From IMG/VR virus record IMGVR_UViG_3300025141_000755, positions 1 through 23,828 of that record: a DNA stretch of 23,828 nt. One strand, given 5' to 3'. This document shows, in pieces, positions 1-23,780 of the stretch. A model generated the notes under the pieces. The model was not told the DNA's origin. It saw only the letters and a list, made by a program, of their open reading frames with translations, and did not search any database. Each line of letters starts with the position of its first letter. Within the stretch, counting starts at the first letter, position 1. Made by a program: the position numbers and the translations under genes. This DNA is from a virus.

Positions 1-3000
1 CCCTGCCGCTACATCTAGCGAAGAGCCGGAGTTAGCGTCACTGTATAGAATAGCACCAGCCGTAGTAGCAGGGGCTTGTCCAATTTGAGTTGCATCAGCG
101 CTACTTTGTACTTGCATCCATAAGTCTTGGAATGCAATGAACTCTCGGTCATGTGCTACATCGTATAGCAATACACGAGCATGCTCTTCTGTACCCTGAT
201 ACGGATCGAGATAGGCAACTGTTGGCGCAAGTGCTGCAGCAAGCCCCAAAGCCTCGTAGTTCAACTCAATTGTTTTGTTAACATGCTGTACGAAATTCTG
301 AGCAGTTTCGGTACAAGAATCCCCAATCAAGAAATTCTCCATAGGTATACTGTCTCTTGGGTCAGCATCAAATCCACCCTTGCCGCCATTAAATCCAGTC
401 CAAACATCCCCTTCATTCAGAGTACCTCTGCTCTTAGCAAACAGCCCTTCTATAGAATGGGGATTAGTGTAATGCATGTTCATCCAAACAGTATCTCCAT
501 CACGCAAACCACCGGGAGCATACGGATATGCCCAAGACTTGTTTAGGAATACGCCCTCTTTGACTTCAGGATATATTGTACTAGGACTTGCGTGCATATC
601 CACCAATATTACTTCGTCGCCGGATGCTGGTTGGAAAGCAGCATCTCGTTGAGTTAATGTAAGTAAGTTATCAGCCTTTACATTATAATGTGCATAAGAG
701 ACAGTGCCACTCGCTGCCCTCCACGAAAGGCGATAACGATAGCCACTGTACCCGTCAACTCCCGATATATCGTCAGGGAAAAGACTTGCATCTTTCATAT
801 ACAAAAGGGTCGGGGCACCACCAGCCCAAGCCTGAACGATACCAACCGCTCTTCCACTTTGTATTCTGTCAAGGTGAGGATTCACACGGGGGCCTGCTCT
901 GAACTCTACAGCGCTGACATACTGCTTCATCCCATAATCGACATTACCGCCTTGTGTCATTACATTAGATCGGTCATAATAGAATGGGCGCCTGCCTTCA
1001 AATCCAGCACTCTTGAGTAGTGGGTTATCAGCAACTGGAGTATAATTCATATCTTGGTAACCCGGACTCGGAGTAAGTTGTACGCCTACTGAAAATTCCT
1101 TTACAAAGTTCTTACTCATTGCCCAGTTGCCACCTGCAGTGGCTGCTGCGGCTGCTGTAATTGTGTTAGCACTATTATCAATAGCAGTGTACAATACCCA
1201 TTCTCCACTTGGTAAAAATGCTCTACGGTACCTTGCGCTACCACTTATGCCTGCAACAACAGTACCACTTGCAGCAGCCGTCGGTATAGGGAATATATCT
1301 GCATCTTCTACAGAAATCGTAGTCCCAGTAAATGGTTTAGTAATCTTTGTACCGGACCTATGGGCATTACTTGAAATGCTATATGAAAATGCACCGAATA
1401 TTTCTGGATCCTGTGGTGCGATTGCGTCATGACGCCTACCTACTGGATTTGGTGCCCAATTGCTCGCAGTGTGAGTAGCGTCAATGTGTATCTTCATACT
1501 ATTGTCGGGTCCGGGGAATATACCGGCCTCTTCATTTATGAAAAATTGGTTAGGGAATAGTGGTATCTCTACCATAGCACGAGTACTTGCATACTGCGTA
1601 CCTAACTGATAATCATGTTGAATGGTGTCAAGTGTCTGAAATAACCTATCGTTAACCGTAGTGCCGTCACTACACATCGATTCTTCAAGGAACTTGTCAT
1701 CGACATGTAATTTATGACCAGTGCTTATTCCCGTAGCAGTAGCCCATGCGGCAAAGCCAACTGCTTCACTGCCATCTGCTAATATGAAATTACCTGAACC
1801 TAAGTGCGTAGTCCCTGATGCGAAATTAAACAAAACACCTGTCTTTGAAGTATACGCTGCTGATGCGAACTGTATAGGCTCATTCGGGTCAGTCCTTGGT
1901 AATTCAAGATAAATCCTACCTGCTTTGGGAAAACAGTATGTGCCCCAAGACTGCAAATCAGTAGCACGGTTATTGAGTGGAAGAGTGGTCACTGTAAAGG
2001 CACTCGCATCAAATGCGCTTACCTCCGTTGCACAGTCACGCCTTGTATTCCAAGCCATTCTAGCAGTAGGACTTGGATCCCATGTTTCCTTAGTATTGAT
2101 TGCACCTTGGCCGGGACCACCAAGAGTCATAGTGACTACGGGTGCGCCCGGCATTATCTCTTTCACAATATGAGAATCAGGGGCTCCGTCGCCCTTCGCA
2201 CTAACGCTAGCACTCGCAATATCAGAAATTATACCATAAGCGAGTAAATTGGAATTGCCTCCACCATCATCGTCAAATGATAATACTCTGCCTCTTGACA
2301 TTAAATATTCTATTGAGAGAGCATTTGGGATAGAAGCATTTGCTCTTAATTTTGTCAATTGTGAAAACCTTCTTCTGTCGCTAGGCTGAACGGTTAATGT
2401 CATCCTTTTCCCAATGATTTCATGCTCGATAATATCAAACACTTCGTGAACTGCCGTAGACTGATTTGTAGTACCCCTGCCTAAATCTATAGGACCGTTG
2501 TACAACTCTTCGTTATCATGTAATGCTACTGCGGTTCCACCGCCGCCTGAAATACGAATGGTCGTAGCAGTAACAGCATGGTTAATTGTACCGACAACTG
2601 TACCATCAGCACGGTATACGATGTCGTCTTCAGCAAATAAAGTCCTTGCATCTGTACCACTTACGGTAAGCGTAGTAGTAGTGGTGGCAGCATAACCTCC
2701 ACTATTGTTGATTAAGACCCCTGTTCTAATACGACGATTAATTGGCAATTGCCTCAACATGTCCTCTACTTCTTCCAAATTAGAAGAATAGCGGGTAGGG
2801 GTGATTATGACTTTGCTAAATTGTGATGCCTTGGTTGCCAAATTAGAATTGGGCAAAGCAATACTCTGAGGAGTCTTCATAGGGGTGTCCGTGGAAGCCA
2901 ATGGTAAGTAATTCTCAGGGCATAGTGTGAAATCCAATTTCGGCTCAGCGACAGTACCTTCTTCGGTGTCGCCTTCTAAATCACCTTCATCGAATGGCAA

Positions 3001-5328
3001 ATTACTAGGCACCTTCATTTCAATTTTGCCGCCGGGAGCGTATATGTCTAAATCCCCTGCGTCTAATTCAGTATGAATAAGATCGAGAATTGAAGTACTA
3101 CCTGTTACTATTGTACTGACATCCGGTACAGTCTTAGTCACCATAATCGATGGACCTTTCATTGCGAACTTCACAATTGCGCCAGTTATGTCTAATGCTT
3201 GGAATGCTGAATCGGTAGCAGCGCTGAATGTAATCTTCTTAGTAGAATGACTAAGAGTAGCGGTAATTTTACCATCGGTGGTCGCTGGTGTACTTCCTAT
3301 TGAAATCGATGTGGCTGGCAAAACCGCACCATCTTTACCAAAGGATTTGATGCTTTCTAATTTAATAATAGTAGAAGTACTAGTGAAAGAAGAATCAATC
3401 CTAGAAGCAGAAGCCACAGGGAAATTAGAACCGTTATGGCACACTGCATTGTAATGGATTTGTACGAATGGAGCATAATTGTAAGTGGAAAGAGATGGAA
3501 CATCCAATATTGCAATTCGTGCTTCACTGGAAGGGACGAGATGGCGAGCGGCTTCCTTTGAATCACTAGTAGCGTGACCCGCACCTAATGCTTTGAGGCT
3601 AAATAAACTAGATTTGAAATTATTTCCACCTAAAGCGATTATACCCCTATGTGGATCGGATGCATCACTTGGATCTATATCGCTCATTCCATTTTCTACA
3701 ACTTGACTAACCTTCGACTTAAAGGCCACGCCTGTAATTTTAATTGTGCCGTGCGAATCGTATGCAGTTATCTTAGAATTGATAGGGACTGTACCCTTAA
3801 CATCAGAATACTGAGAACTAAAAGATGCAGAGATTACATCTGCCGAAGCATCCAATTTCTTATCAACTGTTAAGTCGGACATTGGAGGTAATGTGCCCAT
3901 GAAAGAATGACTCTTGACATGGTTGAGTATGTGCCTGCCGGAATGACCAATATAGAATCCAGTGCCGGGGTTTACCGACGATGCAGAAAACTTATTGTAA
4001 TTATCAGAATCGATTGCCATACTCATCGAAAACATAATTCCATGATTTTCATAACCACTTTCATCGATACAGACTTGACCTTGCCTATGTGAAAATTGTG
4101 TACCACTACCCTGCGGCTGGTAATCATTACCTGCTCCTCCATCAATCAGACAATCCCCTGTTATTACAACGAATCGCCCAGCGTCGTGCGCCATCAATGC
4201 TCCCCTGCGGCCTGTCGAAGCATTAGAGGCAAAGTCGAGATGGATTGACTCAACCGTGATAAGGCCACTACCCGCAGTATTGATCGCCATGAGCCTTAGT
4301 CGCTCAGGTGCCTTATTGGTGGGCTTTCCAGTAGTAGGCCCATAACCCAATGGATTGACAATGATATTGTATGGTACTTTTGGAATGGCTACATCACTGA
4401 TAGATGAGGCGCCATGCACCTTTACTTCGTAAGAGCCTTGTGAATTCCAAGGACTATCTGCTGTGAAGTTAATAGCCGCTAATGTTGAACTACCGCTCAA
4501 CTGCTCAATCAATGCGGCAGCAGCAGTAGCGCCTATGTCAATTGTATGAGTAGTACCAGTAGTGGCAGAGATAGAAGGAGTTACAGTGATTAGAGAGATG
4601 GGATCGATAGGTTCTTCAAAGCGCCAAAGACCAATCGTGTCATCACTCTTTACGGGCGCATATGGAGCCTTGCCTGACGGCTTTGCTCCTTTAGATAAAT
4701 GGACAGCCTCGATAGTACCTCTGTATTCTCCACCTTTTCCTCCAATGTACATATTAGAAGGAGTCATAACAATTCGCTGGTCTTCATCGAACTTTTTACT
4801 TACGACTAAATCTCCATTGATGTGCATGGATAAACGACGATGATTGAATGTAACAGTGACATTGAGTAATTCACGATGGCCGTCATTCAAGGCAGTAGGA
4901 TCGTTAACTGCAGCATCGGTATAGATGTAAGAGTTATGTAGCCCTAAATTAGGATTAGGGAATGAGATACCATCCCAATATGCGAAATCCCCGTTAGGGC
5001 TATGTACGGGCTTAGCGCTACTAATGGTGCAAACGCTCGATGTACCCGCCGCTACATTTTCTAAATTGATTTCAAAGGAAGCCGGTGCTGGGCTAGAAGG
5101 AGTACCTACTGTCAAGCGCATTATGTTCTCATACTCGTAAACGATACCGCCGCAATCTGGTGCAATCCATGTTTCTAAAGTAAACGCATCTAAAACACTA
5201 GGTAGCGCTTTCTTTAGCCCATCGCTTCCGCCATGTACTACATTTAGGTTAGACGGCACCATCACGCTATCAGTTATACCGTTGAATGACAACGCATATC
5301 CGGGGTCGATTAGTATACTCATATTCAT
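1..5328 (-). CDS. Very large LamG-bearing tail fibre/adhesin-like protein (3' end outside window)
   Basis: I translated this frame by hand: it starts at ATG 5328 and stays open for 1776 codons to the left edge, so the C-terminus is missing. The ATG overlaps the stop of the 675-aa gene by four bases (ATGA), implying coupled translation; AGGGG just upstream is a weak ribosome site. Residues about 10-237 look like a LamG/concanavalin-type jellyroll: ALSFNG, FTLETWIAP, a VTFNHRRLSMHINGDLV strand, YIGG and GLWRFEEP. A second LamG-type motif, DESGYENHG, lies near residue 425. Residues about 867-945 hold the small beta module (TGVLINNSGGY to DNEELY) also found in the 616-aa protein. The rest is Ser/Thr/Gly-rich beta-type sequence that I cannot assign. 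Being last after the tail genes, with glycan-binding-type folds, it probably forms a tail fibre or baseplate adhesin. The coding call is secure; receptor binding is inference. Confidence 0.85.
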   Translation of the reverse strand, partial: MNMSILIDPGYALSFNGITDSVMVPSNLNVVHGGSDGLKKALPSVLDAFTLETWIAPDCGGIVYEYENIMRLTVGTPSSPAPASFEINLENVAAGTSSVCTISSAKPVHSPNGDFAYWDGISFPNPNLGLHNSYIYTDAAVNDPTALNDGHRELLNVTVTFNHRRLSMHINGDLVVSKKFDEDQRIVMTPSNMYIGGKGGEYRGTIEAVHLSKGAKPSGKAPYAPVKSDDTIGLWRFEEPIDPISLITVTPSISATTGTTHTIDIGATAAAALIEQLSGSSTLAAINFTADSPWNSQGSYEVKVHGASSISDVAIPKVPYNIIVNPLGYGPTTGKPTNKAPERLRLMAINTAGSGLITVESIHLDFASNASTGRRGALMAHDAGRFVVITGDCLIDGGAGNDYQPQGSGTQFSHRQGQVCIDESGYENHGIMFSMSMAIDSDNYNKFSASSVNPGTGFYIGHSGRHILNHVKSHSFMGTLPPMSDLTVDKKLDASADVISASFSSQYSDVKGTVPINSKITAYDSHGTIKITGVAFKSKVSQVVENGMSDIDPSDASDPHRGIIALGGNNFKSSLFSLKALGAGHATSDSKEAARHLVPSSEARIAILDVPSLSTYNYAPFVQIHYNAVCHNGSNFPVASASRIDSSFTSTSTIIKLESIKSFGKDGAVLPATSISIGSTPATTDGKITATLSHSTKKITFSAATDSAFQALDITGAIVKFAMKGPSIMVTKTVPDVSTIVTGSTSILDLIHTELDAGDLDIYAPGGKIEMKVPSNLPFDEGDLEGDTEEGTVAEPKLDFTLCPENYLPLASTDTPMKTPQSIALPNSNLATKASQFSKVIITPTRYSSNLEEVEDMLRQLPINRRIRTGVLINNSGGYAATTTTTLTVSGTDARTLFAEDDIVYRADGTVVGTINHAVTATTIRISGGGGTAVALHDNEELYNGPIDLGRGTTNQSTAVHEVFDIIEHEIIGKRMTLTVQPSDRRRFSQLTKLRANASIPNALSIEYLMSRGRVLSFDDDGGGNSNLLAYGIISDIASASVSAKGDGAPDSHIVKEIMPGAPVVTMTLGGPGQGAINTKETWDPSPTARMAWNTRRDCATEVSAFDASAFTVTTLPLNNRATDLQSWGTYCFPKAGRIYLELPRTDPNEPIQFASAAYTSKTGVLFNFASGTTHLGSGNFILADGSEAVGFAAWATATGISTGHKLHVDDKFLEESMCSDGTTVNDRLFQTLDTIQHDYQLGTQYASTRAMVEIPLFPNQFFINEEAGIFPGPDNSMKIHIDATHTASNWAPNPVGRRHDAIAPQDPEIFGAFSYSISSNAHRSGTKITKPFTGTTISVEDADIFPIPTAAASGTVVAGISGSARYRRAFLPSGEWVLYTAIDNSANTITAAAAATAGGNWAMSKNFVKEFSVGVQLTPSPGYQDMNYTPVADNPLLKSAGFEGRRPFYYDRSNVMTQGGNVDYGMKQYVSAVEFRAGPRVNPHLDRIQSGRAVGIVQAWAGGAPTLLYMKDASLFPDDISGVDGYSGYRYRLSWRAASGTVSYAHYNVKADNLLTLTQRDAAFQPASGDEVILVDMHASPSTIYPEVKEGVFLNKSWAYPYAPGGLRDGDTVWMNMHYTNPHSIEGLFAKSRGTLNEGDVWTGFNGGKGGFDADPRDSIPMENFLIGDSCTETAQNFVQHVNKTIELNYEALGLAAALAPTVAYLDPYQGTEEHARVLLYDVAHDREFIAFQDLWMQVQSSADATQIGQAPATTAGAILYSDANSGSSLDVAAG

Positions 5329-15392: not shown

Positions 15393-18300
15393 TCAATAAC
15401 CCTGCCGCCAAAACTTGTCTTTGATACTCTTTAGGAGTTCGTCTCCTTTAGTTGCATTGAAATTGAGTAGAGGTTCGGATTTCTGTTCCATTCCTTCTAT
15501 TATCTCCTTCTGTTGCTCAGGAGACAACTGTTGAAAGTCAGGATCGTTCATCGTCTCTAATTGTTCAGGGCTAAAGACCACTCTAGACTGTGAAACCGTA
15601 GTGCCACTTGCAGCAGTAGCAGCAGGGCCGTCGCCAAGTGGTATGGTAGGGCCCGCCATTGGTGGCGGTGGTGCTTCAGGCATTGGTGCTTCAGGCATTG
15701 GTGCTTCAGGCGCTGGAGCAGGTGCTGGAGCAGGTGCTGGAGCAGGTGCTGGAGCAGGTGCTGGAGCAGGTGCTGGAACAGGCGCTGGAGCAGGCGCTGG
15801 AGCAGGCGCTGGTTCTTCCGGCGGTGCATTTTGCATCGCTTCTCGATGTGCCATTGCTGCCATCATTTCATTATACCTCTTCTTGTTTTCAGAAAGTGTC
15901 ACCCATGGTGCCGGGTCATCCATTGCTGTTGCTTCTCCATGTCGCACATCTTCTCTTTCTTGACCTTCTCTACGACTTTGTTGTTCACCGGAAGTATATG
16001 GATAAGCGGCTGCAATACCTTCCCTTGCAGCACTGGGGCGTTCAATGGGAGGAACTTGGGAGCCGGGGTCTAACCCAGCCTCTCTTGCCGCTATATCAGT
16101 ATCTCTCATTTCTTCATAATTCCTTCGCAGAGAATCCATCAACATCTCTTTGCCATCGTCTCTATACCTTTGCTCATGGATATGCTTATCGCCAGTAGCA
16201 TGTTCATCAATGATGCTTTTTACACCACTTTCTCTACTCTCTGCATGGTTATCCATTAAGAAATCGAGTACACGACTCAACTGAACTGAACGAGGTGCCT
16301 GTCGTAATTGTCGCATTACTCGATGACCAGCCTTTCTTTGCTTGGTGTCTATTACATCTCTACCACTGGTACTTTGTCTTACGGGATAATGTTCTTCTGT
16401 ACCATATCCAGACTTACCGCCATGTGCTCGATCGAGAACTTGGCGCTGTTCTACCTCGCCAATTTGCCTTCGGATGTTAGCAGCCTCTTCTTCTTTACCG
16501 GGTGTATCTTGTGCAATGCGAAGGAGGGCTTCTAATTTATCGGGGCGCTCAACTATTTTCTTGCTACCCCTTGTGCCCTCTTGTACACCAAAGGCCGAAG
16601 GTAAATGTTCATCTTGCATAACTGGTTGAATTGGAGTTCTAACATCACTGTCGGGGTCCATGGAATCATCAATCATTTCTTGCATCATACCTAAATGTGC
16701 ATGAACAGCAGAAGTAAGTGGTTGCTTCAATGTTTCAATCTCATCTTTAATGAAATCCTCTAATTCATCTTCACGACCATGTTCTTGTAAAAATTTAGCC
16801 TGAGGCTGATTGTAAGCCGTCAGTCTAGCCGCTTCATGTATTTGCCTTGCTTCATCTACCGCCTGCCTCTTTCGGTCATATTCCAAATTAGCAGCCTGCT
16901 GACCGGCAATTTCAGCATCACTTAAGAACTGCTGACTTGCAAAGGCCTCACTCTCCTTATGTGCTTTGAGTTGAGCCTTAACTTTCTCAATCTGTGATTG
17001 AATATCCATCCTTCGTTCATGCGTCATATTATCAGAAGCACTACCTAATTGATATTCAGGTGGTAGATTTTCTTCATCTAAATTTTCTGTTAAGAAGTCA
17101 GCAATGGCTCCCATCGTGGCTTGCCTCGCATTCTCTTTATGTCTAGCCAAGGGATTACCTGAGGGTGGCTCCACTCCTACTAATCTATCAACGCTTGGCT
17201 CAGAAGGTCTTTTGCGTGTCCCTTTACCATAAGAGGCACCCATCTGAGCCTGACCTAACTTACCTCTTTCAAGTGAAGGGAAATCTTCACCACCCACCTT
17301 TGTACCGGGTACGCCTTCAGGCGATAACGAAATACCCGTGCTATCATGATATTGCTGGAGATCTTCAGGTGAAAGTTCTTTCGTGTTTTCGTGATATTGT
17401 TCAAGTTCCATAGGTGAAAGTTCTTGATGCTTTGGGGGGCGCACTCCTAGTTTAGCAAATGCAGCCACTACATCCTCATTATCCTGAAGATTAAGGCCCA
17501 TATTTCTTGCTATATCTTGCCATGGACTTTCACGGTCATTCATTAATGAACCCATGATAGCAGTTCTCAAATCTTTAGGTTGGCCGTAATCCTGAGTCAC
17601 ATCACCCGCTTGGTTAGTTTTAATTCCAAATTGCTTTGGTACTGTTGGCGTAACGGCTACTCCCTTGTCCCTTTCATAATCTTCGACTCTGCCTTCAATC
17701 TCTGCTTGTCTTTTTGGAGCATCTTCATGCCATTGCTTCACTTCTGCTTTGAAATCCTTTTCGGCAGTAGCCCTTGCTCTTAGATACGCTGCCTGTTTTT
17801 CTCTGTTAGTAGAGGCTAATCTATTTCTTTCAGATTGAGTTAATCTTCCAGTCCTTGCCTCATCCCTCATAGTCTTATCATCGAACATAGTTTCCATAAA
17901 TTCCTGCCCTGTAGGTGCGGTACCTTCGCCCATTCTACGAGGTGCAACTTTCACTTTCCCTTTCCGATCTATAAATGTTCTATCCTCTTCAGGGTCAAGC
18001 CTAACAGCCGACCTAGTTGCTTCTAAATTGCGAGCAGTCTCATCGCCCAGCATGGCATCAGGGGTTTCCGGTTTTCTAATCCCTTTCTCTCGTAAATAAT
18101 TTTGGAATGACTTTAAGTGACTAGGCATCGATGGATAATGAGAACCATCCTCAGTAGGTTTGGCTAACTCCCCTAATCCTTTTTGTGCCCCTAGTCTAAT
18201 TTGCTCTACTTCTGCGGGGTCGTACATTGCACTCTCGCTTTCGTCTTTGGGTTTGGTTGTTAATTCGTGAATCTGTCTTTGAAGTTCAGAAGCATCTGCT

Positions 18301-19427
18301 TGCACTTTCCTCCTGTCCTCGCTCGGCGGCTCCTTCCCATCTCCTTGTGTTGCTGCAAGCGTTCTTTCAAGAGTCGCAAGTCGAGACTTCATCCCCTCCA
18401 GTGTCTTATCGTCACTCAGACCAGTAGGATCTACCTCTGTGGCAGCAGGCATAAGCACACGCCCTCCTAACTGAGCCTCAAGGTGCTTTAGATGTGCTTC
18501 TAATCTCTCACCAGTATCAACTTGCTTACCAGCAGCCTGAGCCGCCATCTGAGTCCTTAGTCGTTCTCTATCTGTGTCACTAATATCTTCGGGGATTGGG
18601 AAATATTCTTGCCCTCCCCCTTCAGTCCTTGGTTGAATTACTCGTACTATTTTACCTCGCCCAGTCCTCTTCAAACCCATTTCTTCTAATTTTTTGTCAC
18701 CCTCTCTAAATGGTAAACGATTTATTTGTTCAGTGACCTCTTGAGTTTCTTCAGGAGAAAGTTCTTCAGTACCGCCCATCTGTGCAAAGACTCGACCTAT
18801 ATCTTTACCTGTCTTTTTGTGACGCTTAACACCAACTTCTGCAGGACTTGCACCCTCACCAATTTGGCGCAATGCTTCATCTCGTTCTGCCCTCGTCTTT
18901 CGGGCTTCTACTCCAACCTTTTGACCTGTAGTCAAAGTAGGCGCTGTACCCTCGTGAATATCACGGAGCATTGCCCTCGTATCTCCTTTGTGCTTTACTC
19001 TAAGCAATTCAGGATCTATATCATGTATATCCATTATGTTATCCATAAGGCCGGGTTCTTTTCCAACCCGCCTAATCATTTCATTTAATCGACCTTCTCC
19101 GGTACGAAGGTCTGCACCTTCCATGAATTTACTAGGTGGTTCTTCTTTAGATTCTTCAACTGCTACTCCTTCTCTTTTAGGAAATTTAACAGGATCTTTT
19201 AATGTTTTAGAAGGTAATTCTATTCCCAATTTCTCGGCTGCTTCTTTGACGCTACCGGGCTTCACCCCGACTTTTCCACTTTCAGGTCGCTCTCTTGGTA
19301 TGTATTCATCTTCAGGGTTGGATAAGCCACGGGGGTCTTTTTTTTCCCTGCCTGCATAGTTGGCTTGTTGCTCTTCTAACTTAGCCTGTTCTTCTTCGGC
19401 CCTTGATTTGACTAAAACTTCGCCCAT
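15393..19427 (-). CDS. 1344-aa charged, helical, Pro-Ala-rich protein of unknown function
   Basis: Start ATG 19427 (MGEVLVKSRAEEEQ) is preferred over an in-frame upstream start at 19475, because GGGAGGA lies just ahead of it and the upstream choice would overlap the zinc-ribbon gene by 46 bases. The protein is highly charged, rich in Glu, Arg, Lys and Gln, with helical stretches (ERDEALRQIGEG, DIQSQIEKVKAQLKAHKE, EAANIRRQIGEVEQRQ) and much low-complexity linker. It has repeated LSPE motifs (for example LSPMELEQYHENT and LSPEDLQQYHDST) and a long Pro-Ala run followed by EAPMP repeats near the C-terminus. No transmembrane segment or catalytic motif is evident. It lies between head-decoration genes and the connector gene. 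It might be an internal head protein, an ejection protein or an assembly factor. I do not recognise a family. Confidence 0.85.
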   Translation of the reverse strand: MGEVLVKSRAEEEQAKLEEQQANYAGREKKDPRGLSNPEDEYIPRERPESGKVGVKPGSVKEAAEKLGIELPSKTLKDPVKFPKREGVAVEESKEEPPSKFMEGADLRTGEGRLNEMIRRVGKEPGLMDNIMDIHDIDPELLRVKHKGDTRAMLRDIHEGTAPTLTTGQKVGVEARKTRAERDEALRQIGEGASPAEVGVKRHKKTGKDIGRVFAQMGGTEELSPEETQEVTEQINRLPFREGDKKLEEMGLKRTGRGKIVRVIQPRTEGGGQEYFPIPEDISDTDRERLRTQMAAQAAGKQVDTGERLEAHLKHLEAQLGGRVLMPAATEVDPTGLSDDKTLEGMKSRLATLERTLAATQGDGKEPPSEDRRKVQADASELQRQIHELTTKPKDESESAMYDPAEVEQIRLGAQKGLGELAKPTEDGSHYPSMPSHLKSFQNYLREKGIRKPETPDAMLGDETARNLEATRSAVRLDPEEDRTFIDRKGKVKVAPRRMGEGTAPTGQEFMETMFDDKTMRDEARTGRLTQSERNRLASTNREKQAAYLRARATAEKDFKAEVKQWHEDAPKRQAEIEGRVEDYERDKGVAVTPTVPKQFGIKTNQAGDVTQDYGQPKDLRTAIMGSLMNDRESPWQDIARNMGLNLQDNEDVVAAFAKLGVRPPKHQELSPMELEQYHENTKELSPEDLQQYHDSTGISLSPEGVPGTKVGGEDFPSLERGKLGQAQMGASYGKGTRKRPSEPSVDRLVGVEPPSGNPLARHKENARQATMGAIADFLTENLDEENLPPEYQLGSASDNMTHERRMDIQSQIEKVKAQLKAHKESEAFASQQFLSDAEIAGQQAANLEYDRKRQAVDEARQIHEAARLTAYNQPQAKFLQEHGREDELEDFIKDEIETLKQPLTSAVHAHLGMMQEMIDDSMDPDSDVRTPIQPVMQDEHLPSAFGVQEGTRGSKKIVERPDKLEALLRIAQDTPGKEEEAANIRRQIGEVEQRQVLDRAHGGKSGYGTEEHYPVRQSTSGRDVIDTKQRKAGHRVMRQLRQAPRSVQLSRVLDFLMDNHAESRESGVKSIIDEHATGDKHIHEQRYRDDGKEMLMDSLRRNYEEMRDTDIAAREAGLDPGSQVPPIERPSAAREGIAAAYPYTSGEQQSRREGQEREDVRHGEATAMDDPAPWVTLSENKKRYNEMMAAMAHREAMQNAPPEEPAPAPAPAPAPVPAPAPAPAPAPAPAPAPAPAPAPEAPMPEAPMPEAPPPPMAGPTIPLGDGPAATAASGTTVSQSRVVFSPEQLETMNDPDFQQLSPEQQKEIIEGMEQKSEPLLNFNATKGDELLKSIKDKFWRQGY
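15670..15711 (-). repeat. 15-bp tandem repeat coding EAPMP
   Basis: The plus strand has GGTGCTTCAGGCATT twice (15670-15684, 15685-15699) and most of a third copy. On the minus strand it encodes EAPMP units right after the Pro-Ala run of the 1344-aa protein. It keeps frame, so it expands a linker rather than breaking the gene. Confidence 0.85.
15709..15804 (-). repeat. 12-bp tandem repeat (8 units) coding Pro-Ala linker
   Basis: Eight consecutive copies of GGYGCTGGARCA on the plus strand, with a partial ninth after 15804. Variation is limited to C/T at base 3 and one GGAACA unit (giving PAPV). On the minus strand each unit encodes Pro-Ala-Pro-Ala. Pro-Ala runs are typically stiff extended linkers, as in TonB. 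Near-identity at the DNA level points to recent slippage expansion. Confidence 0.92.
17344..17423 (-). repeat. 45-bp period repeat coding LSPxxLxQYHxxT
   Basis: Segments 17344-17378 and 17389-17423 match at most positions with a 45-base offset and end in the same AGGTGAAAGTTC. They encode LSPEDLQQYHDST and LSPMELEQYHENT in the 1344-aa protein, a 15-residue peptide repeat. Related LSPE motifs occur elsewhere in the same protein. Confidence 0.8.
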
Positions 19428-19429
19428 GA

Positions 19430-19714
19430 CTAATCCTCCCGTTCTCCTAAATTGAATTCCATTTGTCGCCCGCAAGTACTACAGTTGTCAACCCACATAA
19501 AGTACAACATCCCACAGTTCTTACACCGTGTGCCGGACCCTATGTTTAGGACATCACCGGCTTTCTTATTACGATTGCGCTGCTTCTTGGTAATACCTTG
19601 AAGTGGTTTGTCCTCGTTGAATACGGTGCCAGCCCCGTAGGACTCGGCTAACCGTACTCCACGCTTCTGCAATCGGGCGATGTCGTCTAAGCCGAGGCTG
19701 TTGTTTGACTTCAT
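19430..19714 (-). CDS. Small zinc-ribbon protein
   Basis: 94 aa from ATG 19714, with GTGAGGTT upstream overlapping the end of the 73-aa gene. The C-terminal half has CKNCGMLYFMWVDNCSTCG, two Cys-x2-Cys knuckles separated by ten residues, a typical zinc ribbon. The N-terminus is polar, with a basic patch TKKQRNRNKKAG between residues about 43 and 54. Zinc ribbons of this kind bind nucleic acid or protein. Its position in a structural operon, two bases before the 1344-aa gene, suggests an assembly or packaging-associated accessory, or a regulator made late; the sequence alone does not decide. The metal-binding fold is well supported; the role is unknown. Confidence 0.85.
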   Translation of the reverse strand: MKSNNSLGLDDIARLQKRGVRLAESYGAGTVFNEDKPLQGITKKQRNRNKKAGDVLNIGSGTRCKNCGMLYFMWVDNCSTCGRQMEFNLGERED

Positions 19715-19956: not shown

Positions 19957-20226
19957 TCAGCGAGTTCCAATTGCCCACCAAGTTCCGCCAACATTAGCCC
20001 CGCATACAAGCGTAATTGTAGTGCCAACTGTGGCATCTATTTCTGTGGATACTGTTGGTGCAGATGCAGCATTACCATTCTGCCCTGCTGCAAGTATCTT
20101 ACTAAAGTGGTCGGGGAGAGTAATATCTCCGCCTGTACTGCCACCATCGTTAGCGAAAGTTCCAGTTAGCATCATTAAGTCTCCTAAACTGTGTGGTCGT
20201 GTGTCTGTTGTTGTCGTAAATGCCAT
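19957..20226 (-). CDS. Small virion protein, head-decoration candidate
   Basis: 89 aa from ATG 20226; start and upstream stop share one base (TAATG) and GGAG lies about ten bases before it. The N-terminal MAFTTTTDTRPHSLGDLMML then TGTFANDGGSTGGDI recalls a group of small phage structural proteins with an 'MAFT...GTFxNxGGSTGGDI' start. The rest is beta-like (VSTEIDATVGTTITLVCGANVGGTWWAIGT). It follows the capsid gene within a run of small genes, so a surface or accessory head protein is a reasonable guess. The resemblance is from memory of the pattern, not from a search. Confidence 0.75.
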   Translation of the reverse strand: MAFTTTTDTRPHSLGDLMMLTGTFANDGGSTGGDITLPDHFSKILAAGQNGNAASAPTVSTEIDATVGTTITLVCGANVGGTWWAIGTR

Positions 20227-21153: not shown

Positions 21154-22323
21154 TCACTTAAGCGCACGGATCTGTCCTTGGCCTCCAAAGAAAGTAGTCC
21201 AAACTTCACCCATTGTGCGGTAAAGTCCTTCCTGCCCTAGTCTGTTAATTGCGAATGGGTCACCAGTCTCAATACCAGACTCAAAGTATTGAGTTGGTTT
21301 TGCAGTACTGTAGTATAGGTAATCGGTGTCAAGCAGGTAAATTCTGCTGATACCGTCTGAGGCTACATCCTTAGATGGGATGATAGGTACGCCGTTGTAA
21401 GTTGCGACAATAAATCCTGCCTCAACACCGGGTACACCTTTAACGCCGTTGTAAGTTGGTACAACTCTCTTCTCTTCCATAAAGCGCTGTTGGCTTTGGA
21501 GGAGTTGCTGAATACGCATCAAAGTGTCATATCCAGTTAGGATGACCTTTGGATTACCACCACGAACCCAAAGTTTCTGGAACATCTCATCGAGATTGTC
21601 AAGACTTAGAGTTCTGTCAGTAGAAGTGTCGCCAACAATATTGTTGCTCATCTCTGCACTTGCCCAAGTGTTAGCACTTCGGTCAATACTGTAGATGTCA
21701 AGGTCGCTTTCAGCAGACAAGTCGTCATGCCCTGCGTTCATCCCTGTGGTTGTTGCTGCAGTACCGTCATCATGGTATGCTGCAGTGATTCGGTCCAAAG
21801 ACTCGATGTCATTTCCAGCAGGTGTGTCTACATCTGTAGTTAGCATTTGGTTGATGTGCTCAGCGTGGTGCTTGCCCATCTCTTCCTTTAGGACAGAGCG
21901 AATGTCGCCAAGTCCGTCATCCTTGTCATTCAAGAAGATTGCAACCTCGGACATATCGAATGAGTGTGCGATAGTCTTAGGCTTTGCTGCAACATTCTGG
22001 AATGTAGGCTTGGTAGTGTCAGGAAGTGTGCCGTTCTCTGCAATTCCGCCGCCAACTGCTGTTGAAGGCTTAGCAGTGACAACACGCCATCCACTTCGGT
22101 CCCACGGCTTCTTAGGTAGAATGGAGAATGCGTTGAATTCTTGGTTCAACTGGCTCCAGACCTTGCGTCCGTAGATTGCTTGGTAAGTTCCTGCAGTTGT
22201 GCTCAATAGTGGAGCATCTGCCTTGAGAAGTTCACTACCGGAGTAGCCGAATCCCATGTTAGTTCCAGCGCCATAGTAATAGCGCTCCATGTCTTGTACT
22301 GTTCGTGTATAATTTCGTGCCAT
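21154..22323 (-). CDS. Major capsid protein, HK97 fold
   Basis: 389 aa from ATG 22323 (MARNYTRTVQDMERYYYGAG). This start is preferred over an in-frame upstream start at 22380, because GGAGG at 22331-22335 sits seven bases before it in the 14-base gap after the protease stop. Features fit HK97-type capsid proteins: an N-terminal arm; a central part with DMSEVAIFLND and EEMGKHHAEHINQML; the P-domain helix NLDEMFQKLWVRGGNPKVI then LTGYDTLMRIQQLL; and a C-terminal ATYNGVPIIPSKDV, RIYLLDTDYLYYS, GEVWTTFFGGQGQIRALK. It follows a prohead protease, the usual order. Cleavage of the arm by the protease is possible, but no site can be fixed. Length is within the usual range. Confidence 0.9.
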   Translation of the reverse strand: MARNYTRTVQDMERYYYGAGTNMGFGYSGSELLKADAPLLSTTAGTYQAIYGRKVWSQLNQEFNAFSILPKKPWDRSGWRVVTAKPSTAVGGGIAENGTLPDTTKPTFQNVAAKPKTIAHSFDMSEVAIFLNDKDDGLGDIRSVLKEEMGKHHAEHINQMLTTDVDTPAGNDIESLDRITAAYHDDGTAATTTGMNAGHDDLSAESDLDIYSIDRSANTWASAEMSNNIVGDTSTDRTLSLDNLDEMFQKLWVRGGNPKVILTGYDTLMRIQQLLQSQQRFMEEKRVVPTYNGVKGVPGVEAGFIVATYNGVPIIPSKDVASDGISRIYLLDTDYLYYSTAKPTQYFESGIETGDPFAINRLGQEGLYRTMGEVWTTFFGGQGQIRALK

Positions 22324-22337: not shown

Positions 22338-23210
22338 TCAGTTCCAAACTGTTCCTGCGAGACTGTGTACTTCGTCCCACGACATATTTGCTAGTTCCTC
22401 AGTCGTAGGAATTTCTACGCTGGAGTTGTTGGATGCCTTGCGGATTTCTACCGAAGGTGTTGCAGAACTGATGTTATCGATTCTGTCACTTAGTTGTGAA
22501 ATCGCCTTCTCGATGCTTGAGAGTGGGCCACGAGCGTCAAATTGTGACGCTGCACGGCTCTGTGCCTCTGCTGTGAGTTCCTTCTGGAGGCGCTCACCGA
22601 ATACATCGTTTAGGTTATTCTTGAATTGCTGCTCAACTGCTGCAGCCTTGAAGACAGCATATGCGTCTTCAATCTCGGAAGGTGAGACATTCTCAGGGCT
22701 TAGGTAAGATTTTGCGACTCCGCCGCTACCAAGTCCTGATGCTCCTAGAGCATTGGTGCCGGGTGAACCACCCTCAGTTGCACGGCCTGCTACCTGTCCA
22801 TTCATTTGTGTTTCTGGAAACTGCTCTGGTGTGCTACCAAGGTTAGCCTTGGAAACGCCATCAAAGTGTGAGCGAGCCGCACCAGTGTCTACACCTGCAG
22901 ACTTTAGGGTGTTCTCCATCCAGTCTAGGTATTCACTAGTGATGACATCGCTGTAACCATCGCTCTTTTTCGTGTCGTCCTTTTTATCGGTCATTTTTTC
23001 ATCGTCCTTGTCTTTATCTTTGTCGTCGTCATCGTCAGCCATGAGTACATCGTCTCCGACCGCCTCATCATCATCTTCAGGGCAATCTTCTTCCTCGCCA
23101 CCTTCAATCAGTTCTTCAAGGTCATCTTCCTTTTCCATACCATCGAGTTGCTTGGATAGCCGATCTATTACTGACGATAATTCGCCTAATGCATCTATTT
23201 CATTTGTCAT
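22338..23210 (-). CDS. Nested scaffold protein, internal start in the protease gene
   Basis: 290 aa in the same frame as the protease, from an internal ATG at 23210 (Met180 of the long form). A strong AAGGAGGA precedes it, with eight bases between GGAGG and ATG. That is better than anything at the long form's own start, which has no ribosome site. The internal start falls just after the protease domain ends. The short form begins MTNEIDALGELSSVIDRLSK, predicted helical; continues with very acidic runs (DDDDDKDKDKDDEK); and has Gly/Ser-rich and helical C-terminal parts (DAYAVFKAAAVEQQFKNNL, LSSIEKAISQLSDRIDN). This layout matches protease/scaffold pairs such as lambda C/Nu3, where the scaffold guides capsid assembly and is then degraded. 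Expression of the short form is inferred, not seen. Confidence 0.75.
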   Translation of the reverse strand: MTNEIDALGELSSVIDRLSKQLDGMEKEDDLEELIEGGEEEDCPEDDDEAVGDDVLMADDDDDKDKDKDDEKMTDKKDDTKKSDGYSDVITSEYLDWMENTLKSAGVDTGAARSHFDGVSKANLGSTPEQFPETQMNGQVAGRATEGGSPGTNALGASGLGSGGVAKSYLSPENVSPSEIEDAYAVFKAAAVEQQFKNNLNDVFGERLQKELTAEAQSRAASQFDARGPLSSIEKAISQLSDRIDNISSATPSVEIRKASNNSSVEIPTTEELANMSWDEVHSLAGTVWN

Positions 23211-23747
23211 AGTTGTGTCCTCCTTCAGTATTCTAAAGGATGCTTCGGGATTAATCCCTTTCTCACAAATGGTCACCTCATGTAGTTCTAACTTGGAGAT
23301 TTCTGTATAGTCTCCATGCTTTGCATCTGCTTTGTTAATGCGCTTAAACGCTTGTCCACCGATGCTGAACCCAGTTAGGTTACCCTTGCGAATCTCATTG
23401 GCTACTTCACGAGCCTTCTCGATGTCATCTCTTAGTTTGATGACAACGAACATGCCAGCGTCATCGACGCCGGACTTCCATAGTCTGCCATCAGAATCTG
23501 TATAATTACCGATGACTTCTCCAACTTGTATATTGGAGTGTGCGAGTTGTACATTGCGGAAACCTTGTGCTTTCATAAAGTTGCCAAACGCATCCTTGAG
23601 TGCCCCACGAGTAATCAAATCACCTTGCTTATCTACCATCTCTACAGATGCGTAGCCAGCAATGATTAGGTCATTGGAGGACTTGATAATGGATATACTA
23701 GACGGGTGGGCCGGGTTAGATAGCCGGAGTGCCGCAGCAGGTGCCAT
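22338..23747 (-). CDS. Prohead protease (HK97/U35-S78 type) fused to scaffold region
   Basis: 469 aa from ATG 23747. Residues about 25-175 match the HK97 prohead protease family: GYASVEMVDKQGDLITRGAL near the N-terminus; QLAHSN with the likely catalytic His70; GFSIGGQAF with likely nucleophile Ser128; and LELHEVTICEKGINPEASF, where family members usually have EVS/T...PAN and where Glu157 or a neighbour could complete the site. The protease cleaves scaffold and sometimes the capsid arm during maturation. Residues 180-469 form an acidic, partly coiled-coil scaffold-like region. The start lacks a clear Shine-Dalgarno; an AT-rich box lies about 27 bases upstream, which suggests a leaderless message. 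The position directly before the capsid gene supports the call. Confidence 0.88.
   Translation of the reverse strand: MAPAAALRLSNPAHPSSISIIKSSNDLIIAGYASVEMVDKQGDLITRGALKDAFGNFMKAQGFRNVQLAHSNIQVGEVIGNYTDSDGRLWKSGVDDAGMFVVIKLRDDIEKAREVANEIRKGNLTGFSIGGQAFKRINKADAKHGDYTEISKLELHEVTICEKGINPEASFRILKEDTTMTNEIDALGELSSVIDRLSKQLDGMEKEDDLEELIEGGEEEDCPEDDDEAVGDDVLMADDDDDKDKDKDDEKMTDKKDDTKKSDGYSDVITSEYLDWMENTLKSAGVDTGAARSHFDGVSKANLGSTPEQFPETQMNGQVAGRATEGGSPGTNALGASGLGSGGVAKSYLSPENVSPSEIEDAYAVFKAAAVEQQFKNNLNDVFGERLQKELTAEAQSRAASQFDARGPLSSIEKAISQLSDRIDNISSATPSVEIRKASNNSSVEIPTTEELANMSWDEVHSLAGTVWN
23218..23225 (-). promoter_or_regulatory. Internal Shine-Dalgarno for the nested scaffold start
   Basis: AAGGAGGA on the minus strand, inside the protease coding region, eight bases (from GGAGG) before an in-frame ATG at 23210. 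Such a match with ideal spacing at a domain boundary is unlikely to be neutral. Confidence 0.78.
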
Positions 23748-23764
23748 TACCCAAAAATACAGCG

Positions 23765-23780
23765 TTTATACTATTTAATT
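23765..23780 (-). promoter_or_regulatory. Candidate archaeal-type TATA promoter for the capsid operon
   Basis: On the minus strand AATTAAATAGTATAAA precedes the protease gene. The TTAAATA part is centred about 27 bases before ATG 23747, the usual TATA-to-start distance in archaea if transcription begins at the ATG. The gene has no Shine-Dalgarno, consistent with a leaderless message. AT-rich DNA at a gene junction could also arise by chance. Confidence 0.35.

Follow-up and report, generated by a model that had tools for sequence, protein, structure and literature searches.

An internal start conserved within the prohead protease gene of magrovirus-like viruses and the probable scaffolding protein that it would encode

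The prohead protease gene of a virus fragment of 23,828 nucleotides (hereafter the window, meaning the whole stretch that was analysed) carries a Shine-Dalgarno (SD) sequence followed by an in-frame ATG exactly at the end of its protease domain. The internal start, its SD and their register, as well as a TATA box ahead of the long start, are conserved features of the related sequences. The reading that we consider highly likely on these sequence grounds is that of a nested start, in which one gene would provide both a leaderless fusion of protease and scaffold and an SD-led protein of 290 aa that serves as the bulk scaffold. The initial annotation, which had proposed a nested scaffold gene of this kind, described the sequence correctly and is probably right about the mechanism.

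Source of the window, virus group and host

The window is an IMG/VR fragment that holds the head and tail region of a tailed virus on its minus strand, and more than 200 relatives are found in IMG/VR. The nearest isolated viruses by protease and major capsid protein (MCP) are the haloviruses of the Druskaviridae. One homologue, with 37% identity, is encoded in a single-cell assembly of Candidatus Poseidoniales, and a family-B DNA polymerase is encoded on three contigs of 97-109 kb that carry close homologues (the window itself being a fragment of 23.8 kb). The Magrovirales, viruses of Poseidoniales, have a family-B DNA polymerase and a genome of about 90-110 kb. The single-cell homologue and the polymerase on the long homologous contigs fit the magroviruses described in PMC10160649 and PMC12999244, and the window probably stems from a magrovirus-like virus with a Poseidoniales host. 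The 16S gene of the same single-cell assembly has the 3' end GGATCACCTCCT, and hence SD pairing would be possible in such hosts.

The protease gene and its internal start

The long form of the gene product (469 aa; 22338..23747, minus strand) is predicted to be an S78 prohead protease with a C-terminal scaffold-like region. The prediction is based on the profile matches to PF04586 (Peptidase_S78; E 1.4e-11, 45.3 bits against a curated cut-off of 21) and phrog_23555 (E 9.7e-16), and on the conserved catalytic His70 and Ser128, which are invariant in an alignment of 30 homologues. The Pfam match spans residues 24-179 (23211..23678, minus strand), so that the domain ends immediately before Met180. 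The part that follows is acidic, with 51% D+E at residues 200-262, and long helices are predicted in it, which agrees with its earlier description as an acidic coiled-coil region. The structure model of the full-length protein was poor (pLDDT 48.5) and was left unused. The public records examined list the long form alone.

The internal SD AAGGAGGA lies on the minus strand at 23225-23218, with its GGAGG at 23223-23219, and a spacer of 8 nt (ACACAACT) separates the GGAGG from the ATG at 23210-23208. This ATG codes for Met180 and is in frame with the 469-aa ORF, whose own ATG is at 23747. Both the coordinates and the Pfam limit bear out the initial claim of a GGAGG and, eight bases on, an in-frame ATG where the protease domain ends. 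In the whole 23.8 kb the coding strand contains AAGGAGG only once, and the Met180 site shows the strongest pairing with the 16S tail among the 12 in-frame internal ATG, GTG and TTG codons of the gene.

Given its amino acids, the window motif alone is not beyond chance, and it is the conservation that makes it more. The residues at this point are L-K-E-D-T-T, and 32% of the synonymous versions built with the codon usage of the gene pair as well as the window sequence does; across homologues the same test gave a median P of 0.14, with the wrong Met taken for L100 and L107, for which the pairing survey of 66 homologues has the right one. As the single sequence is not significant, the case depends on related sequences, which are not fully independent of each other. 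A chance GGAGG may appear in any single homologue given its residues, and at the protein level K175, E176 and D177 are conserved. The GGAGG could hence be mere Lys-Glu-Asp codons in a gene from which the 469-aa protein alone is made, the C-terminal part being freed by self-cleavage as for P2 gpO. The provision of protease and scaffold by a single gene is indeed known in P2 and lambda (PMC8508860). The codons and the position of the SD in homologues bear on this explanation.

Conservation of the internal start across homologues

Met180 is kept in all but one (L075) of the first 80 homologues, and AAGGAGGA precedes the Met in nearly all of them. Further comparison was made on a non-redundant set of 66 genes from magrovirus-like viruses of Poseidoniales. 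Pairing with the anti-SD at -7 kcal/mol or better was found at 63 of the 66 internal starts versus 8.4% of 750 other in-frame ATGs, with mean energies of -9.4 and -3.3 kcal/mol respectively; the use of the best Met's energy where several Met lie close together slightly favours the internal start in these figures. Regarding a loss of the ATG or the GGAGG among homologues, which the initial annotation had named as evidence against a nested start, the ATG is present in every gene of the set (66/66). The GGAGG is less constant (45/66), yet 17 of the remaining 21 genes have another SD-like sequence at the identical register, namely AGGTGA or TGGTGA in 12 and GGAGA in five. Weak SDs of -4.8 to -5.8 kcal/mol are seen in L011, L119 and L164, and L165, which is without GGAGG, is still at the pairing threshold with -7.6 kcal/mol, a pairing no better than its amino acids predict. 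The divergent homologues L119, L164 and L165 keep the internal Met (KMTD), and since the SD is weak or ambiguous there, initiation in these three might depend on another feature.

The first base of the GGAGG or its equivalent stands 13 nt from the ATG in 62 of the 66 genes, even though the distance from a conserved ILK to the internal Met varies between 4 and 11 residues. A constant register in spite of a variable linker would be kept by ribosome binding and would not be kept by selection at the protein level. The sister clade found via L075 mostly retains Lys-Glu-Asp, mostly written as AAA GAA GAC or GAT, and thus the GGAGG is lost there. Its Met is located several residues downstream and is preceded, at the same register, by AAGGTGA, CAGGTGA or GGAGATGA, a form that also precedes other genes of the window at 20226 and 21118.

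Codon choice points in the same direction. Glu176 is written as GAG in all 46 GGAGG-type genes with zero synonymous changes on their tree, although these genes prefer GAA and write only 468 of their 1586 Glu codons as GAG. None of the 78 two-fold codon columns has a lower count (mean 8.3 changes). Since some others come close to it in conservation, the measure is supporting and not decisive; Lys175 shows one synonymous change on the tree. A GGAGG that merely follows by chance from the amino acids, which could happen in one sequence, is ruled out by the synonymous conservation combined with the relocation of the SD in the sister clade. Together with the universal Met in a variable linker, these observations make release of the C-terminal part by self-cleavage of a sole 469-aa product unlikely.

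The purine-rich site is situated exactly at the domain boundary, where a pause could aid folding, and it might therefore act as a translational pause or a frameshift stimulator between the two domains and not as a start. Such a role is highly improbable, since an ATG at a fixed distance would be unneeded for it and yet the ATG is universal and its register nearly so; moreover, a single frame is open throughout the gene across homologues. The nested start accounts for these features, and on the sequence evidence the gene very probably yields a short co-terminal product.

The long start and its putative promoter

The long start of the window has no SD (GTATTTTTGGGTA-ATG). Rather, a TATA box (TTAAATAG; 23771..23778, minus strand) that may act as a promoter begins 31 nt before the start codon, and 31 nt is also the median of this distance in the homologues. 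A strict TATA-like box 28-35 nt upstream of the long start was found in 60 of the 66 homologues, a count for which the chance level is somewhat raised by the search over several candidate start codons. At this distance the box was present at none of the 66 internal starts, none of 64 MCP starts and 0.24% of random positions. A promoter of its own for the internal start is ruled out by this absence.

In archaea the TATA box precedes the transcription start by about 25-28 nt. Given this distance and the spacing of 28-35 nt seen here, the mRNA should begin at or near the ATG of the long start, and the long form is probably translated from a leaderless mRNA. The long start of the sister clade is often GTG or TTG. 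The SD-less long start noted in the initial annotation holds for the window and most relatives but not for all, as 13 of 64 long starts have SD-like pairing at -7 kcal/mol or better. The suggestion that the protease is read in a leaderless mode and the scaffold in an SD mode draws support from the TATA box, which accompanies the long start and not the internal one.

The short form and the major capsid protein

The short form would run from Met180 to the end of the gene (290 aa; 22338..23210 including the stop, minus strand), with the predicted N-terminus (M)TNEIDALGELSSVIDR. Its structure model (pLDDT 68.6, pTM 0.29) is all-helical apart from a disordered acidic linker, the predicted order being an N-terminal helix, the linker, two short helices, a helix of 47 residues, another helix and a small C-terminal helical pair. 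The C-terminal motif NMSWDEVHxLAG is strongly conserved in the homologues. A second SD-like site, weaker than that of Met180, is found within the acidic linker (GGAGACGATGTACTC-ATG, Met236, window 23040-23042).

The MCP gene (389 aa; 21154..22323, minus strand; phrog_24667, E 5.6e-56) follows directly after the protease gene with a short gap and has its own SD, GGAGG, at 22335-22331; the mean energy of the MCP SD in homologues is -8.6 kcal/mol. The window MCP aligns from near its N-terminus to position 76 of phrog_24667, the alignment reaching the end of the latter, and by this alignment the N-terminal delta domain of ~100 residues is absent from it. The short protein is most likely the scaffold, because of its position by the MCP, the MCP without a delta domain and its acidic helical make-up.

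As function is judged here from gene position and composition, internal initiation could be real while the short protein is an internal head protein or a protease regulator, and PDB sequence and fold searches with the C-terminal part gave no match and no link to a known scaffold. This other role has a small though appreciable chance. It sits less well with a short form placed between protease and MCP, with the lack of a delta domain, with the helical and disordered acidic composition, and with the conserved C-terminal motif, as an MCP-binding tail might show.

Comparison with known systems

The lambda C/Nu3 gene shares with the window a single ORF upstream of the MCP gene, with an N-terminal protease and an in-frame internal start that leads to a co-terminal scaffold, and by this analogy the window gene probably works like lambda C/Nu3. 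However, the annotation of lambda gpC is that of an S49 peptidase, whereas the window protease matched S78-type Pfam families only; therefore descent from lambda C is not claimed. Lambda is also bacterial, whereas the window virus is archaeal, and an archaeal TATA promoter probably gives its long form a leaderless mRNA. The same scan applied as a yardstick to lambda C (L175:219-1538) gave Met309, with AGGAGG, as the best SD-led internal ATG; the lambda RefSeq record places Nu3 at residue 239, which is without a clear SD. In HK97-type viruses, as in the window, the gene for an HK97-fold MCP directly follows that of the S78 prohead protease, but in HK97 the MCP itself carries the scaffold as its N-terminal 102 residues (PMC8508860), whereas the scaffold-like part of the window is carried on the protease gene instead.

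Among isolated viruses, the closest are HVTV-1, HCTV-1 and HCTV-5 of the Druskaviridae (protease 32-34%, MCP 32-34%), which, like the window, have a long acidic C-terminal extension on the protease followed by the MCP. Their MCP aligns from about residue 76 only, unlike that of the window. No SD is found at the protease domain boundary of these haloviral relatives. This is in line with a report on Haloferax volcanii, which describes the SD mechanism as unused at 5'-UTRs (PMC3986360). With VKNM conserved but the SD absent, the haloviral relatives were set aside as support for the internal start.

An S78 protease with an acidic coiled-coil C-terminal part, followed by a short MCP, is shared with the window by the Streptomyces and Rhodococcus phages Annadreamy, Comrade, Gilson, Wakanda, Yaboi, Angela and Trina. 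In the Streptomyces phages and in Rhodococcus phage Trina (L168, residue 268 of ORF 2459-3778; L176-L181), an internal GTG or ATG is preceded by a very strong and conserved SD, either GGAGGTG or GGAGGTC. It is retained in their relatives to about 45-55% identity, and the records list the long protein only. These phages differ from the window in their bacterial hosts and in the position of the internal start, about 70-100 residues past the protease domain and not directly after it. For a more distant virus, vir519 of Methanofastidiosa (L085:1514-3913), a protein of 799 aa annotated as hypothetical lies upstream of the MCP and matches a head-maturation-protease family at residues 413-579. Its AAGGAGGTTGAGAAT-ATG at residue 590 is just past the protease match, with the 8-nt spacing of the window, and a second strong SD-led internal ATG is at residue 666.

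Proposed mechanism and significance

The capsid-assembly operon would start with the TATA promoter, transcription beginning at the protease ATG or a few bases from it, and the long fusion of protease and scaffold would be translated from this leaderless 5' end. A second entry of ribosomes at the internal SD and ATG 23210 would yield just the C-terminal 290 aa, and translation of the MCP would follow from its own SD. We infer that both proteins are made and that the short one is present in excess over the fusion and scaffolds the capsid as the bulk scaffold. The fusion may then carry a few copies of the protease into the procapsid via the shared C-terminal region. A wider proposition, to which we give even chances, is that the protease-to-scaffold ratio is set by using leaderless initiation for the fusion and SD initiation for the nested scaffold on the same mRNA, and that nested starts are general but unannotated where an S78 protease of an archaeal or actinobacterial virus has a long C-terminal part.

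No scaffold is mentioned for magroviruses in PMC10160649 and PMC12999244, and it may have gone unseen because it is hidden within the protease gene. The present analysis indicates a probable scaffold for uncultured viruses of marine archaea that form a widespread group. An arrangement like that of lambda C/Nu3 would also occur in archaea and with a protease of a different family, and it may offer a natural test of leaderless versus SD initiation on one transcript.

Other features of the window

A suspected sequencing-adapter remnant near 688, in an ORF reading MCIRDS, was ruled out, as a search allowing 2 mismatches did not find the adapter pattern. The ORF at 19430-19714 codes for 94 aa with two CxxC-type pairs and appears zinc-ribbon-like, with weak matches only. 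The product of the ORF at 15393-19475, which has no Pfam or PHROG match, contains a run of Ala-Pro repeats. Its listed TTG start is probably wrong; GGAGGATTAGTC-ATG would place the start at 19427 and give a protein of 1344 aa.
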